Positions 14,526-19,105 of a DNA stretch of 47,226 bases are shown in pieces. Position 1 is the first letter of the stretch, and every line of letters starts with the position of its first letter. Under the pieces are notes generated by a model. That model was not told the DNA's origin and did no database searches. It saw only the letters and a program-made list of their open reading frames with translations. The position numbers were made by a program, and so were the translations under genes. The DNA is taken from contig PMAT01000131.1 of NCBI GenBank assembly GCA_003152695.1, forward strand, positions 1-47,226. Reading direction: 5' to 3'. Origin of the DNA: Acidobacteriaceae bacterium (GTDB lineage: Bacteria > Acidobacteriota > Terriglobia > Terriglobales > Acidobacteriaceae).

Positions 14526-14685
14526 AGGGCGGCCGCTCAGCGCGTCGCTGCCGCAACATTTCGCGCGTGGCGTCCTCGTCGATCAGCTCGCCCCGCTCGG
14601 CCTGCGCAAATCCAGTTGCGATTTGTGCTGCCACTTCCTTGCGTTGCGCAAACATCCAGTCCGATCCACAAGCAAGATCGCTCAT
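14500..14685 (-). CDS. Small antitoxin-like protein coupled to the aspartase gene
   Basis: A 61-residue frame whose ATG overlaps the aspartase stop codon in an ATGA junction, a classic sign of translational coupling. The segment [27 protein letters not shown] resembles the C-terminal helix region of ParD/RHH-type antitoxins ('[12 protein letters not shown]'). The N-terminus is short and no ribbon-helix-helix DNA-binding strand is obvious. No toxin gene is adjacent. The last 26 bp overlap fabH tail to tail. It could be a solitary antitoxin, a decayed remnant, or a small protein unrelated to toxins. Confidence 0.5.
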
Positions 14686-16130
14686 TTTGCTTTTAGCCTT
14701 TCCCGCTCCTTCGCTGCGTCCAGCGGGCGCACCGGCTCGGTCATGCGTGCGGGATCAAGAATTTCCTTGATCTGCTCTTCGCTCAGATCGCCGCGCTCAC
14801 GGGCAATCTCAATGATGGACTTGCCGGTCTTCACCGACTCTTTGGCAATCTCCGCGGCTTTGGCGTAACCGATGTACGGATTCAGCGCCGTGGCCAGTGA
14901 CACCGTGCTCTGCACGTAGTAGTCGGTGCGCTTCTGGTTGACCGTGATGCCCTTGATACAGAACTCGGTGAGCTGCCGCAGCATGTTGCTCATGATGGTG
15001 ATCGAGGTGAGCACGCTGTAAGCCATCGTCGGCATCATGACGTTAAGCTCGAGTTGGCCGGCCTGGACCGCGAGCGCTACCGTGGTGTCGTAACCGATAA
15101 CCTGGAACGAAACCATGGCCGCCAGCTCCGCCATCACCGGATTGATCTTGCCCGGCATGATGGAAGAGCCCGGCTGCAGTGCTGGCAGATTGATTTCTGC
15201 CAGGCCAGTGTTCGGGCCCGACGACAGCAGCCTCAGGTCGTTGGAGATGCGGATGACCTCCAACGCTAGATTGCGCAGCGCCGAGCTGACCGACGACATC
15301 GCCAGGTTCGATTGCATGGCATAGCGCATGTCATCCACGACGTGCAGCTTTTGTCCCGAGATGCGCGCCAGGTCGGCGATCGCCTTCTCCCGGTAATCGG
15401 GATGAGTATTGATGCCGGTGCCCACCGCCGAGCCGCCGAGTCCAACCTCGCGCAGCAGCTCCGATTGCTGCTGGATGGACTTCGCCGCGCGCTTGATCGC
15501 GCCCGCGTAGGCCTGGAACTCCTGTCCCAGCCGCATGGGAACTGCGTCCATCATGTGGGTGCGGCCCGACTTTAGGATGTCGTGGAACTCCTTGCCTTTT
15601 TCGTCGAGCGCGGCAAACAGGCCATCGAGCACCGCGTACAGCTTTTCCAGTTCGAGCAACGCGGCGAGGCGCATGGCGGTGGGGAAGACGTCGTTCGTCG
15701 ATTGCCCGTAATTGACGTGATCGTTGGGATGGACGTGCTTGTACGCGCCCAGCTTGCCGCCCAGCAACTCGGAGGCGCGGTTGGCGATGACCTCGTTGGC
15801 ATTCATGTGGAAGCTGACGCCCGCGCCTGCCTGGAAAACGTCCACCACGAATTCCGGGTTCCATTTGCCCTGCTGAACTTCCTTGGCCGCCTCGATGATG
15901 GCATTGGCCGTCTTCTCGTCCACCAGACCGAGCTCGCGATTGGCGAGGGCGGCAGCTTCCTTCACCATCGCGATAGCGCGGATAAGCGAAGGGTGAGCGC
16001 GCAATCCGCTGATGGGAAAATTCTGCGCGGCGCGCGCGGTTTGAATGCCGTAGTAAACCTCGGCGGGGATTTCCTTGGGGCCGAGGGAGTCTTTCTCCGT
16101 ACGGGTGGGAGTCTTGACAGCGGCAGACAC
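14682..16130 (-). CDS. aspA: Aspartate ammonia-lyase (class II fumarase/aspartase superfamily)
   Basis: Deaminates L-aspartate to fumarate. Superfamily motifs are ANRASELLGG with VHPNDHVNYGQSTNDVFPTA, SGRTHMMDA and GSSIMPGKINPVMAE, the signature loop with its catalytic Ser. 'NYGQSTND' and 'PVMAE' fit aspartases rather than FumC, and a separate class I fumarase lies nearby, but FumC cannot be excluded by eye. GTG at 16130 is chosen because TTGGAGGA lies 8 nt upstream; it gives 482 residues. A TTG at 16145 lies within that ribosome binding site. The C-terminal stop overlaps the next small ORF. With fumarase, the product enters the TCA cycle. Confidence 0.85.
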   Translation of the reverse strand: MSAAVKTPTRTEKDSLGPKEIPAEVYYGIQTARAAQNFPISGLRAHPSLIRAIAMVKEAAALANRELGLVDEKTANAIIEAAKEVQQGKWNPEFVVDVFQAGAGVSFHMNANEVIANRASELLGGKLGAYKHVHPNDHVNYGQSTNDVFPTAMRLAALLELEKLYAVLDGLFAALDEKGKEFHDILKSGRTHMMDAVPMRLGQEFQAYAGAIKRAAKSIQQQSELLREVGLGGSAVGTGINTHPDYREKAIADLARISGQKLHVVDDMRYAMQSNLAMSSVSSALRNLALEVIRISNDLRLLSSGPNTGLAEINLPALQPGSSIMPGKINPVMAELAAMVSFQVIGYDTTVALAVQAGQLELNVMMPTMAYSVLTSITIMSNMLRQLTEFCIKGITVNQKRTDYYVQSTVSLATALNPYIGYAKAAEIAKESVKTGKSIIEIARERGDLSEEQIKEILDPARMTEPVRPLDAAKERERLKAK

Positions 16131-16233
16131 CAGTTTGTCCTCCAAGGAGTAGAGATGATCGCGCGGGGCAACACGACTTTCTATATCGAGTATTTTTTAT
16201 CCGGCCGCCACTCTTGCGGAGTATATAGGGAGT

Positions 16234-17496
16234 ATGCGCACTTCTAAGCCTTCCCCACTCAGCACGGGGTACGAGACTGAACGAAACACGGAAGCCTTGC
16301 TAAAAGCCGTAGTAGACGCTCACGTCCAAGGACTGTCCGGAGACGACGTTTGGCAACTTCTCCGACTCACTTGGATTACCAAAAGGAAAGATCACTGGAA
16401 GAGCCTCAAAGTGCCAGCGCTGGCCCACCTTTTCCCCAAGGGACTCCGCGCAAAGAAAGCCGACATTCGCGGCGATTTGAAATCCACGGTCGAGAACATA
16501 AAACTCTCCGACGTGATCGTGGCAGAAGCTGCCGCTAAGAAGACTGGCTTTGTAAATTGTTACGCCGCATACAGAAACTCTGCGCAAGCTTGGTGCAAGG
16601 AGAACGAGAAAGAGTTAAAAGCAATTGTGAAAGCGGCCAGAAACCTCGGGCCTAATGATCGGGCTCGATTCGATCTAGCTGGCAGAATCGAGAAATTGTC
16701 GCCAGTGTTAACTCCTCGTCGTAAGCGAAAAATGAGTGCTGTGAATCTCATCACGCCGTTGATCGCCTGTCTCGATCCCAAGCGGTATTTTCCGATTATT
16801 AATGGACAAAAGAACGTCAGGCGTCTGCTGACGAAGTTGGGCTTGGCGAAACACGATCTAGAGGCTCAGGTGGAGGGCATGATCGGCCTGATTGGTTCTC
16901 AAGACATTGCCGATGCCTTCGATCTGGATACGCTAGGGGACGCTCGAATAAGTGAGATCGCAATGAAACAAAAGCGCACCGCGCCTCCCTCTATTCAACT
17001 ACGACGGAGCGAGCATAATCTTCAAGGTCGCGGGGCTCCACTCCCTGTGTTGGACGAGGAAGAGCGGCGGTCAGTCATCAAGAGTGCGACAGTGATCTTT
17101 CGGAAGCGACACAACAAAATGACCAAGAGACTCGGTCAGGTATGTAGGGCGCGACTCACACAGGGCAAGGATTCGTTTTGTCGCTACGATGTCTTGACTG
17201 AGAACTACAACGGAACGGGACGCGATTTGCTAATCGAAGTAAAACCTGATCCGGACAAAGGCTCCATTCGGATTGCGATCGGGCAACTTCTTGATTATAG
17301 GAGATTCTTGCCGCACCAAGCCGGTACCGATCTTGCGATTCTAACCATCTCTCCCCCTTCCCGCAGCTACAGGAAACTCTTGCAGGAGCATCAGATCACG
17401 TCGCTCTGGTTCACCAGCGAGAGCTGTAAGACACTGAGGGGCGATGGGAAAAGTTGGCAATCGCTAAAAACAATCATTCGATCGGCTGACAAATGA
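16234..17496 (+). CDS. Putative PD-(D/E)XK nuclease, RecB-like; unassigned family
   Basis: A 420-residue protein I cannot assign to a named family. Residues 1-250 are helical, with a conserved-looking segment 'LIACLDPKRYFPIINGQKNVRRLLTKLG' (about 176-203). Residues 270-400 have the layout of a PD-(D/E)XK nuclease core: Asp319 (RYDVL), the EXK motif Glu335-Val-Lys337 (LLIEVKP), then Q351-L-L-D-Y355, which matches the QhXXY motif of RecB/Cas4-type nucleases. The stretch DLAILTISPP forms the next core strand. Codon use looks less GC-rich than neighbours (about 53 %). It is a single gene with no methylase, helicase or ATPase partner, so a restriction or DNA-repair role is inference only. Confidence 0.7.
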   Translation: MRTSKPSPLSTGYETERNTEALLKAVVDAHVQGLSGDDVWQLLRLTWITKRKDHWKSLKVPALAHLFPKGLRAKKADIRGDLKSTVENIKLSDVIVAEAAAKKTGFVNCYAAYRNSAQAWCKENEKELKAIVKAARNLGPNDRARFDLAGRIEKLSPVLTPRRKRKMSAVNLITPLIACLDPKRYFPIINGQKNVRRLLTKLGLAKHDLEAQVEGMIGLIGSQDIADAFDLDTLGDARISEIAMKQKRTAPPSIQLRRSEHNLQGRGAPLPVLDEEERRSVIKSATVIFRKRHNKMTKRLGQVCRARLTQGKDSFCRYDVLTENYNGTGRDLLIEVKPDPDKGSIRIAIGQLLDYRRFLPHQAGTDLAILTISPPSRSYRKLLQEHQITSLWFTSESCKTLRGDGKSWQSLKTIIRSADK

Positions 17497-17542: not shown

Positions 17543-19054
17543 TTACCCGATCTCCACCATCTCAGCAATCTTCGCCTGCCATTCCTTTGGGCCGGACTCG
17601 TGTACGGAGTTGCCGTTCACATCCACTGCAACCGTGACCGGCATGTCCTCGACCTCGAATTCGTAGATGGCTTCCATGCCGAGATCGGCGAAGCCCAGCA
17701 CGCGCGACTTCTTGATGGCCTTCGAGACCAGGTATGCGGCGCCGCCCACCGCCATCAGGAACACCGCTTTGTGATCGCGAATGGCGGAGATGCCCTCCGG
17801 CCCGCGTTCCGACTTGCCCACCATGCCGAGCAGGCCGGTTTCCTTCAGCATCTGGCGTGTGAACTTGTCCATGCGCGTGGCCGTTGTAGGACCGGCAGGA
17901 CCGACCACTTCATCTCTCACCGGATCGACTGGCCCGACGTAGTAGATGAAACGATTGGTGAAGTCCACCGGAAGCTGTTCGCCGCGCTTGAGCATGTCGG
18001 TCATGCGCTTGTGCGCGGCATCGCGGCCGGTGAGCAGCTTGCCGCTAAGCAGAATCACTTCGCCGGTTTTCCACGTTGCCACTTCTGCGCGCGTGACGGT
18101 GTCGAGGTTGACGCGACGCGCGCCCGCGGGATTGTAGGTCAACGTCGGCCAATCCTTTAGCGACGGCGGTTTCAGCACGACCGCGCCCGAGCCGTCGAGA
18201 ACAAAGTGCGCATGACGTGTCGCCGCACAGTTTGGGATCATCGCTACAGGCAGATTAGCGGCGTGCGTCGGATAGTCCTTCACCTTCACGTCAAGCACCG
18301 TAGTCAGGCCGCCCAGTCCCTGCGCGCCGATGCCCAGCGCATTGATCTTCTTGTACAACTCGACGCGCAACTCCTCGGCGCGGTTCTTCGGCCCGCGGGC
18401 AATCAGCTCCTGGATGTCGATTGGCTCCATCAGGGCTTCCTTGGCCAGCAGCATGGCCTTTTCCGCGGTGCCGCCGATGCCGATGCCGATAATCCCTGGA
18501 GGACACCAGCCCGAGCCCATAGTCGGGACCGTCTTGAGCACCCACTCGACGATGGAGTCGGAGGGATTCAACATGACGAACTTTGACTTGGCTTCGGAGC
18601 CGCCGCCCTTTGCGGCGACGATGACGTCAACTTTGTCGCCCGGAACGAGCTTCATGTTCACGACCGCCGGAGTGTTGTCCTTGGTGTTCTTGCGTTCCCC
18701 CGCCGGATCGGCCAGCACGCTGGCGCGCAGCTTGTTGTCGGGGTGGAGATACGCGCGGCGCACGCCTTCGTTGACCATATCCTCCACGCTCATGGTCGCT
18801 TCCCACTGCACCTTCATACCAACTTTCAGGAAGACCGTTACGATGCCGGTGTCCTGGCAAATCGGCCGATGGCCTTCGGCGCACATGCGCGAGTTGATCA
18901 GGATCTGCGCCATCGCGTCCCGGGCGGCGGGCGACTGTTCTTTTTCATACGCGCGCGCCAGGTTTTGAATGAAATCGACCGGGTGGTAGTAGGAAATATA
19001 TTGCAGAGCGTCGGCAACGCTCTGGATAAGATCGTCTTGCTTGATGACTGTCAT
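17543..19054 (-). CDS. fumA: Class I fumarate hydratase (iron-sulfur)
   Basis: Oxygen-sensitive [4Fe-4S] enzyme interconverting fumarate and malate. ATG 19054, with GAGG 4-5 nt upstream, gives 503 residues with both alpha and beta parts fused, as in E. coli FumA/FumB. Cluster cysteines appear in PICQDTG (Cys66), GSGWCPPGIIGIGIGG and IPNCAATRHAHF. The C-terminal domain has GPAGPTTATRMDKF and the VGGAAYLVSKAIK strand. Longer frames to 19093 lack support. A candidate -10 box lies 52 bp upstream. Tail-to-tail with the nuclease-like gene, 46 bp apart. The substrate can come from the aspartase encoded upstream. Confidence 0.95.
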   Translation of the reverse strand: MTVIKQDDLIQSVADALQYISYYHPVDFIQNLARAYEKEQSPAARDAMAQILINSRMCAEGHRPICQDTGIVTVFLKVGMKVQWEATMSVEDMVNEGVRRAYLHPDNKLRASVLADPAGERKNTKDNTPAVVNMKLVPGDKVDVIVAAKGGGSEAKSKFVMLNPSDSIVEWVLKTVPTMGSGWCPPGIIGIGIGGTAEKAMLLAKEALMEPIDIQELIARGPKNRAEELRVELYKKINALGIGAQGLGGLTTVLDVKVKDYPTHAANLPVAMIPNCAATRHAHFVLDGSGAVVLKPPSLKDWPTLTYNPAGARRVNLDTVTRAEVATWKTGEVILLSGKLLTGRDAAHKRMTDMLKRGEQLPVDFTNRFIYYVGPVDPVRDEVVGPAGPTTATRMDKFTRQMLKETGLLGMVGKSERGPEGISAIRDHKAVFLMAVGGAAYLVSKAIKKSRVLGFADLGMEAIYEFEVEDMPVTVAVDVNGNSVHESGPKEWQAKIAEMVEIG

Positions 19055-19105
19055 TACGCCTCGCTGTAGAAAAGAATGTAAGATTCCAGACAAACACCCA
19101 TGTTA

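Follow-up and report, generated by a model that had tools for sequence, protein, structure and literature searches.

Organisation of the locus

The window, by which the whole analysed stretch of 47,226 nucleotides is meant, comes from a soil Acidobacterium and carries a 420 aa open reading frame (ORF) that is a real gene and is present as a single copy within its genome. Both flanks are metabolic genes on the opposite strand, named by eye as an aspartate ammonia-lyase-like (aspartase-like) gene and a fumarase, so that the gene sits isolated among housekeeping genes, as an earlier note on this DNA had described. Its product has a two-domain layout, with a helical N-terminal domain (residues ~8–250) followed by a PD-(D/E)XK nuclease domain (275–418). 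The positions of these features are given in Table 1.

Table 1. Features of the nuclease locus, in positions of the window
Feature	Position	Strand	Basis or remark
Aspartate ammonia-lyase-like gene (flank)	14682..16145	-	adjoins fumarase in four same-genus genomes
Stretch without match in same-genus empty sites, approximate bounds of acquired segment	16162..17542	.	ends at fumarase stop codon on that side
Nuclease CDS, 420 aa, ATG start	16234..17496	+	ORF translation; 11 full-length members aligned
N-terminal helical domain, residues 8–250, candidate recognition domain	16255..16983	+	AlphaFold2 models; HhH-GPD-like fold as a lead only
Asn190, possible catalytic-Asp position of HhH-GPD glycosylases	16801..16803	+	N in 10/11, G in 1; no register significant
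PD-(D/E)XK nuclease domain, residues 275–418	17056..17487	+	AlphaFold2 model, structural alignments, 11-member alignment
Asp319, predicted metal ligand	17188..17190	+	invariant in 11/11
Glu335-Val-Lys337, E-x-K motif	17236..17244	+	E and K invariant in 11/11
Gln351-Leu-Leu-Asp-Tyr355 (QxxxY)	17284..17298	+	Q and Y invariant in 11/11
Fumarase (flank)	17543..19093	-	

The protein (P0001) has no match in Pfam, NCBIfam or PADLOC at E ≤ 10, in PHROGs at E ≤ 0.001, or among PDB sequences, in agreement with its earlier description as belonging to no recognised family. Profile searches of PDB sequences gave a best E of 0.93 with a two-member family profile and 0.4 with a profile of the N-terminal domain, and found nothing with a profile of a 21-row set. 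Nine relatives or module-sharing proteins likewise had no NCBIfam match at E ≤ 0.1. The window protein is an acquired, probably DNA-cutting member of a rare family for which no named counterpart was found.

The nuclease domain

A complete nuclease site had been proposed at D319, E335-x-K337 and Q351-L-L-D-Y355. These positions were confirmed in an alignment of the 11 full-length family members (listed below), in which D319, E335, K337, R346, A348, I349, G350, Q351 and Y355 are invariant; D319, E335, K337, Q351 and Y355 are also invariant in a 21-row alignment that includes nuclease fragments. An AlphaFold2 model of the whole protein, built from the 21-row alignment, has a pLDDT of 86.9 and a pTM of 0.60, the latter making the relative placing of the two domains unsure. 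The model puts E335 in a strand (331–336) with K337 directly after it, Q351 in a helix (342–356), and D319 directly ahead of another strand (320–322). Judged from these secondary-structure positions, the predicted fold is consistent with a single active site for D319, E335, K337 and Q351, the grouping for which the earlier note had proposed structure prediction as a check. The protein has two features of the PD-(D/E)XK superfamily, the D...E-x-K residues, conserved in 11/11, and a common-core fold in the AlphaFold2 model and the structural alignments.

A Foldseek search with the whole model gave BsmI as the best match (E 0.028). In structural alignments of the Foldseek candidates, the nuclease domain was nearest to NucS/EndoMS (2vld, Z 10.3, rmsd 2.5 over 100 residues; a second structure, 5gke, Z 9.9), followed in order by Can2, VC1899, Cdn1 and BsmI, with AF1548 and Card1 lower. 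The label 'RecB/Cas4-like' given earlier therefore stands for the QxxxY motif, which is of the RecB/Cas4 type and has its Q and Y invariant, but not as a family label, as the nearest folds are NucS/EndoMS, Can2 and VC1899 and conserved cysteines are lacking. No RecB or Cas4 family model was matched in Pfam, NCBIfam or PADLOC at E ≤ 10. Cas4 holds an Fe-S cluster by conserved cysteines; none of the positions that are invariant or invariant in all but one of the 11 members is a cysteine, and a relationship to Cas4 was set aside on this ground.

The N-terminal domain

The N-terminal ~250 residues are almost entirely helix in the AlphaFold2 models, and residues 1–269 modelled alone reach a pLDDT of 81.5 and a pTM of 0.80. 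Ten positions are invariant among the 11 members (T19, L42, W47, T104, G105, R114, P175, L180, P187 and D232), and two segments (~104–120 and ~175–190) are conserved, bearing out the helical N-terminal domain with a conserved-looking segment noticed previously.

In a structural alignment of this domain to 544 chains, 23 reached a Z of 2 or above. Folds of the HhH-GPD type make up the top seven rows, and 13 of the 21 best rows of the 23, if 1xg7 and DUF2419, two of the 13, are such folds, as we take them to be. The best are MutY (Z 4.5, 155 residues), EndoIII (4.4, 161), Mag1 (4.3, 149) and OGG1 (3.8, 174), followed by ROS1, a 3-methyladenine glycosidase and AGOG; the Z values of the top seven (3.3–4.5, 139–174 residues aligned) are low for a helical protein. 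Foldseek searches with the domain gave a best E of 1.7 in the PDB and 0.96 among viral models.

Sequence comparisons with the HhH-GPD family were negative. PF00730 had no match at E ≤ 1 in any of eight members, and hhalign of the N-domain profile to 25 PF00730 proteins, drawn from the genome of the window and from related ones, returned a Prob of 0.3%. A restricted segment of the domain outscored 299 of 300 column shuffles against PF00730, this segment having been picked after the structural matches were seen. When 12 full-length rows were used, 19 of 250 shuffles reached an equal score and the best local match fell elsewhere (residues 98–106); with loose gaps, 10 of 200 shuffles scored as high, the reversed query scored higher (18.2 vs 17.7), and an aspartase decoy gave 16.5. 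The residue facing the catalytic Asp depends on the run (Q192 in two alignments, N190 in the loose-gap one), and none of these registers is significant. Since the sequence-profile tests were negative, the HhH-GPD likeness is treated as a lead from the fold alone; the domain is not identified as a reader by family libraries or by sequence profiles. If the fold holds, N190 (Gly in L026) may lie where glycosylases have the catalytic Asp, and such a domain would read a base, not excise it.

Family members and distribution

A search of 100 genomes with the single protein matched two, the window's own and G092, and none of the eight other genomes of the genus; homologues are thus not fixed core genes, which would have spoken against the earlier note's reading. 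The same search in 396 genomes of the phylum found the window's own only. Within the class, a two-sequence profile matched 16 loci in 15 of 399 genomes; four of the loci are full-length (the window, L003, L004 and L005) and 12 match in the C-terminal part only. A pattern scan of the genomes of 84,980 species gave 23 loci, comprising seven full-length genes (L018–L021, L023, L024 and L026), three that are partial or broken (L022, L025 and L027), and a further 13 in which the match is confined to the nuclease module (by record title, 11 in Actinomycetota and two in Myxococcota). Searches with an N-domain profile matched 1/199 genomes of Planctomycetota (the phylum of G795), this being the seed, which also bears a second, truncated copy (L050); 2/321 in the class of G793 (the seed and L051); 6/250 in the order of G655 (L105 and L107 as new full-length members, the broken L106, and three already known); and 1/201, again the seed, in the order of G793.

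The 11 full-length members are those of the window, L018, L019, L020, L021, L023, L024, L026, L052, L105 and L107; the genome of L052 was placed by the class-level N-domain search. Copies that are broken or lie at contig edges (L022, L025/L106, L027 and L050) were excluded. Several genes were found repeatedly and carry more than one identifier (L002 = L003 = L102 = L023; L004 = L103 = L019; L005 = L104 = L018; L020 = L046; L021 = L047; L024 = L048; L026 = L049; L051 = L052). Across the genomes searched, members are few and unevenly spread, occurring in Acidobacteriota, Gammaproteobacteria and Planctomycetota.

Neither the single protein nor alignment A1 found a relative in viral contigs, and alignment A2 gave five matches there, all to the nuclease module only. 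Phage and plasmid records contained no match to P0001 or L021, and plasmid records none to P0002, another family member. The truncated second N-domain of the Planctomycetota genome (L050:1459-2325) adjoins a ParB-like ORF, and its frame runs into a segment that by eye looks like an unrelated iron-sulfur oxidoreductase; decay, recombination or an assembly join could account for it.

Acquisition of the gene

Horizontal gain, suggested earlier from lower GC and isolation, is supported by an empty site, GC content, a tree that is incongruent with the phyla, and the rarity of the family. In four of the eight other same-genus genomes (G005, G006, G007 and G008), the fumarase and aspartase-like genes are direct neighbours, by our own reading about 60–300 bases apart, with no nuclease match between them, while 1397 bases separate the two ORFs in the window. 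The remaining four genomes are uninformative because no fumarase was found within their short loci. Similarity to the empty sites ends at the fumarase stop codon (17543) and restarts at about 16162 or 16142; by eye, no integrase gene was seen at the junction. In one genome of the genus (G001; L061, L063), the aspartase-like gene is in two open pieces, from a frameshift or an assembly error.

The GC content of the nuclease gene (51.7%) is the lowest of 60 ORFs (mean 60.4%, SD 2.2; z -3.9), and its third-position GC deviates with a z of only -1.8. The sample consisted of the 60 longest-ORF picks of at least 250 aa, the nuclease included, over 115 kb of the same genome; these ORFs were uncurated, and the stretches beyond the window were taken by convenience. 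In a tree of the 11 members, those from Acidobacteriota fall into two supported groups: the Acidobacterium F-183 member groups with four Gammaproteobacteria (98/98), away from the window, L018, L019 and L105 (96/99). The same split is found in a nine-row tree (99/98). L107 and L026 have long branches, and their joining is unsafe. The empty sites, the lowest GC, and a rare family scattered over three phyla together indicate that the gene was gained horizontally.

Genomic neighbourhoods

Restriction or Hma genes adjoin four of the 11 members. Upstream of L018, in line and on the same strand, are a DrmD-like helicase (8.6e-198), a type III methylase (1.9e-198) and a type III REase (2.2e-178), and an HsdR-like ORF (4.1e-62) lies immediately downstream of L024. 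Within ~7 kb of L026 lie genes for a C5 methylase (6.8e-126), an HEC-06 protein (5.6e-127) and a kinase. A complete Hma system (HmaA, HmaB and HmaC, each E 0) starts ~2.4 kb from L052 and is divergent from the nuclease gene.

Phage or recombinase genes are near two more. The divergent member L107 (L109:6570-7775, minus strand) lies antisense directly past a gene for a phage tail protein (1.2e-15). Genes for a portal (5.8e-118) and a head protease (3.8e-99) are found upstream, and the contig ends nearby; the placement of L107 resembles that of phage-borne extra genes. On the same contig side as L105 are genes for a DNA-invertase-like recombinase (1.5e-40) and a primase-polymerase-like protein (2.9e-51), and these surroundings may be a mobile element. 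Elsewhere, L019 is next to a PIN-like PDC-S70 gene (4.5e-38), with a gene matching PDC-S05 (1.8e-18) also there, and the 3-kb contig of L021 bears, by eye, a Phd/YefM-like ORF. Three of the 11 members are solitary and lie in housekeeping surroundings where no defence gene was recognised by eye: that of the window, L020 (between obgE- and proB-like genes) and L023 (adjoining an Hsp70-like gene), the neighbours being named by eye.

As a control, eight ORFs were picked by eye from three stretches in the genomes of L018, L026 and L052. None matches restriction genes in PADLOC; one matches the kinase model PD-T4-6 (6e-83) and one weakly matches JetC, the set being too small for a P value. Because a control ORF matched a kinase model, the kinase near L026 was given no weight and only restriction and Hma genes were counted. 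With that small control, the neighbourhoods of homologues, whose enrichment in defence islands was to be checked, place restriction genes beside four members and leave three solitary. DNA methylases are found near L018, L026 and L052; none was recognised by eye among the ORFs of the window.

A nuclease module shared between proteins

The nuclease, recognisable by its IR.AIGQL.DYRR-type motif, is a module that also follows other N-terminal domains. It is preceded by an EVE domain in L037 (PF01878, E 2.7e-4; 21.4 bits against a cut-off of 23), by an SRA-like domain in L043 (SAD_SRA, E 0.027; 14.7 against 30.7 bits; PADLOC mREase_IV, 1.3e-6), and by a phage replisome-organiser N-domain in L041 (E 3.2e-4; 21.1 against 23.3 bits), all three matches being under the Pfam cut-offs. 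The SRA-like part of L043 alone (residues 14–153) matches an archaeal plasmid 'AAA family ATPase', a match that an McrB reader would be expected to give. The occurrence of the module behind EVE- and SRA-like domains is the main ground for reading the N-terminal domain of the window protein as a recognition part.

Several further arrangements of the module were seen. Five proteins of Acidobacteriota (L006, L008, L009, L010 and L017) have a recurring YWVVSPNV...AFMGW...GDVILIARR domain with the same module; L009, the one of the five that was scanned, has no Pfam or NCBIfam match. The domain is, to our eye, presumably EVE/PUA-like, and the five look like a second unnamed reader-nuclease family. 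An SRA-like domain with the module occurs in viral contigs (L043:7284-8213, L044 and L045) and in gene 63 of Gordonia phage Sidious (MK967384.1, 43947-44816), which adjoins two annotated methyltransferases; these proteins are possibly phage-borne modification-dependent nucleases directed against rivals. In two other viral contigs (L041:7524-8534 and L042:684-1715), the module is embedded in a replisome-organiser-like protein, whose N- and C-terminal parts on either side match weakly (in L041, E 3.2e-4 and 0.078, respectively). L012, L014 and L016 carry three further, mutually different N-terminal regions before a related nuclease domain, none of them with a confident Pfam match.

Proposed function and alternatives

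Relatives of the gene often adjoin antiviral genes, and this makes the window protein a likely defence enzyme; that it serves defence in some form is judged highly probable. Indirect support for a role in defence or modification-dependent restriction, for which it had been named a candidate, comes from the restriction neighbours (4/11), the phage or recombinase genes (2/11) and the module shared with EVE- and SRA-like proteins. The more specific reading, a horizontally acquired single-gene defence endonuclease acting in the manner of modification-dependent (type IV) restriction, has about an even chance of being right. Points against this reading are the three solitary members, the empty phage and plasmid searches with three members, an N-terminal domain that no library or profile places among readers, module partners whose EVE and SRA matches fall short of the Pfam cut-offs, the mismatch-repair enzyme as top structural match of the nuclease, the best Foldseek E of 0.028 for the whole model, and the small size of the neighbourhood control.

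Under type IV-like restriction, the C-terminal PD-(D/E)XK domain would cut DNA, with D319, E335, K337 and Q351 predicted to surround metal ions. The helical N-terminal domain, standing where EVE- and SRA-like domains stand in other proteins, would direct the nuclease to foreign DNA by binding a mark on it, which is most likely a modified base. The host would be spared by the absence of the mark from its own DNA, a step suggested by the lack of a recognised DNA methylase gene in the window. Should the N-terminal domain be a degenerate HhH-GPD domain, the base might be flipped out for reading and, without the catalytic Asp, left unexcised. The DNA cutting, the choice of target by the N-terminal domain, the modified-base target and the antiviral effect are what we infer from the evidence set out above.

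The nuclease folds of NucS/EndoMS and the DNA glycosylase folds nearest to the N-terminal domain would suit a DNA-repair endonuclease, in which a glycosylase-like domain recognises lesions and a NucS/EndoMS-like nuclease joined to it makes the incision where a base is damaged or mismatched. A repair role is unlikely, as the family is rare and patchy (0/8 other same-genus genomes, 6/250 in the richest order searched), the gene has moved horizontally and restriction genes adjoin 4/11 members; the N-terminal domain of NucS is also different, being beta-rich. The restriction genes could themselves mean that the nuclease is an accessory to larger restriction systems (type I, type III or Hma) and that lone copies are orphans, since four unlike systems adjoin members: type III RM (L018), HsdR (L024), a C5 methylase with HEC-06 (L026) and HmaABC (L052). 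The partner changes each time, however, as expected from co-residence in defence islands rather than from a subunit role, and three members have no such neighbour recognised; an accessory role is accordingly rather improbable. The likeness to Can2 and Card1 (Z 7.2 to 9.8) raises the case of a suicide (abortive-infection) nuclease whose N-terminal domain senses a phage-induced signal, as Can2 and Card1 do with cyclic tetra-adenylate. That resemblance is limited to the nuclease fold, no CARF or other family was matched in Pfam, NCBIfam or PADLOC, and no signal-making neighbour was recognised by eye, making this the least probable of the three alternatives. Activation by a cyclic oligonucleotide was set aside, as no CARF-family match was found.

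Within the modification-dependent reading, the N-terminal domain may have an HhH-GPD fold, now without its catalytic Asp, that flips bases in order to read them and so guides a one-gene restriction enzyme against hypermodified phage DNA; this is a tentative proposal and more probably wrong than right. If true, search-and-flip machinery of the glycosylase type, taken from a repair enzyme, would here give the restriction enzyme its specificity and add a new class to the readers already known, which include PUA-like (SRA/EVE), winged-helix and sulfur-binding domains. Many phages evade restriction and CRISPR by means of modified bases, and the domains known to read such bases are, to our knowledge, a short list. 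A module that is otherwise paired with likely modified-base readers, and here with an unfamiliar helical domain, would offer a direct route to a new one. The family also includes solitary genes among housekeeping genes, which searches by defence-island context overlook. One published study reportedly describes a defence system against modified cytosine. Among the literature matches listed, no title or abstract opening names the family, and none names a restriction enzyme whose reader has a glycosylase fold.

Comparison with known systems

Weak matches to NOV_C (PF13020, Protein NO VEIN C-terminal) were found in two of eight family members (best E 0.0042), the best of them (P0002, 17.6 bits) below the gathering score of 22.1; the window protein itself has no match. 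The mismatch endonuclease NucS/EndoMS is alike in its nuclease fold, and the window protein differs from it in having a helical N-terminal domain, in not being a core gene and in the lack of a sequence match. The nucleases of the Can2/Card1 and VC1899 types are also alike in this fold (Z 7.2 to 9.8), and the window protein differs in having no CARF-family match.

The N-terminal domain has HhH-GPD DNA glycosylases (including MutY, EndoIII, Mag1, OGG1 and ROS1) as its top seven structural rows, and is unlike them in lacking a PF00730 match, in seemingly having Asn or Gly at the catalytic Asp position, and in profile tests that are not significant. The antiviral DNA glycosylases Brig1 and Brig3 defend by recognising modified cytosine; they are assigned to the uracil-DNA glycosylase superfamily and excise the base, and parts of the reports on them mention no nuclease domain, unlike the window protein (PMC11078745, PMC13160076). 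EVE- and SRA-type modification-dependent restriction endonucleases have a PUA-like N-terminal domain, whereas that of the window protein is helical and matches no reader family; the two are alike in joining an N-terminal domain to a C-terminal PD-(D/E)XK nuclease in one chain. EVE-PD(D/E)XK proteins of this build are described as putative type IV restriction enzymes (PMC7641849).
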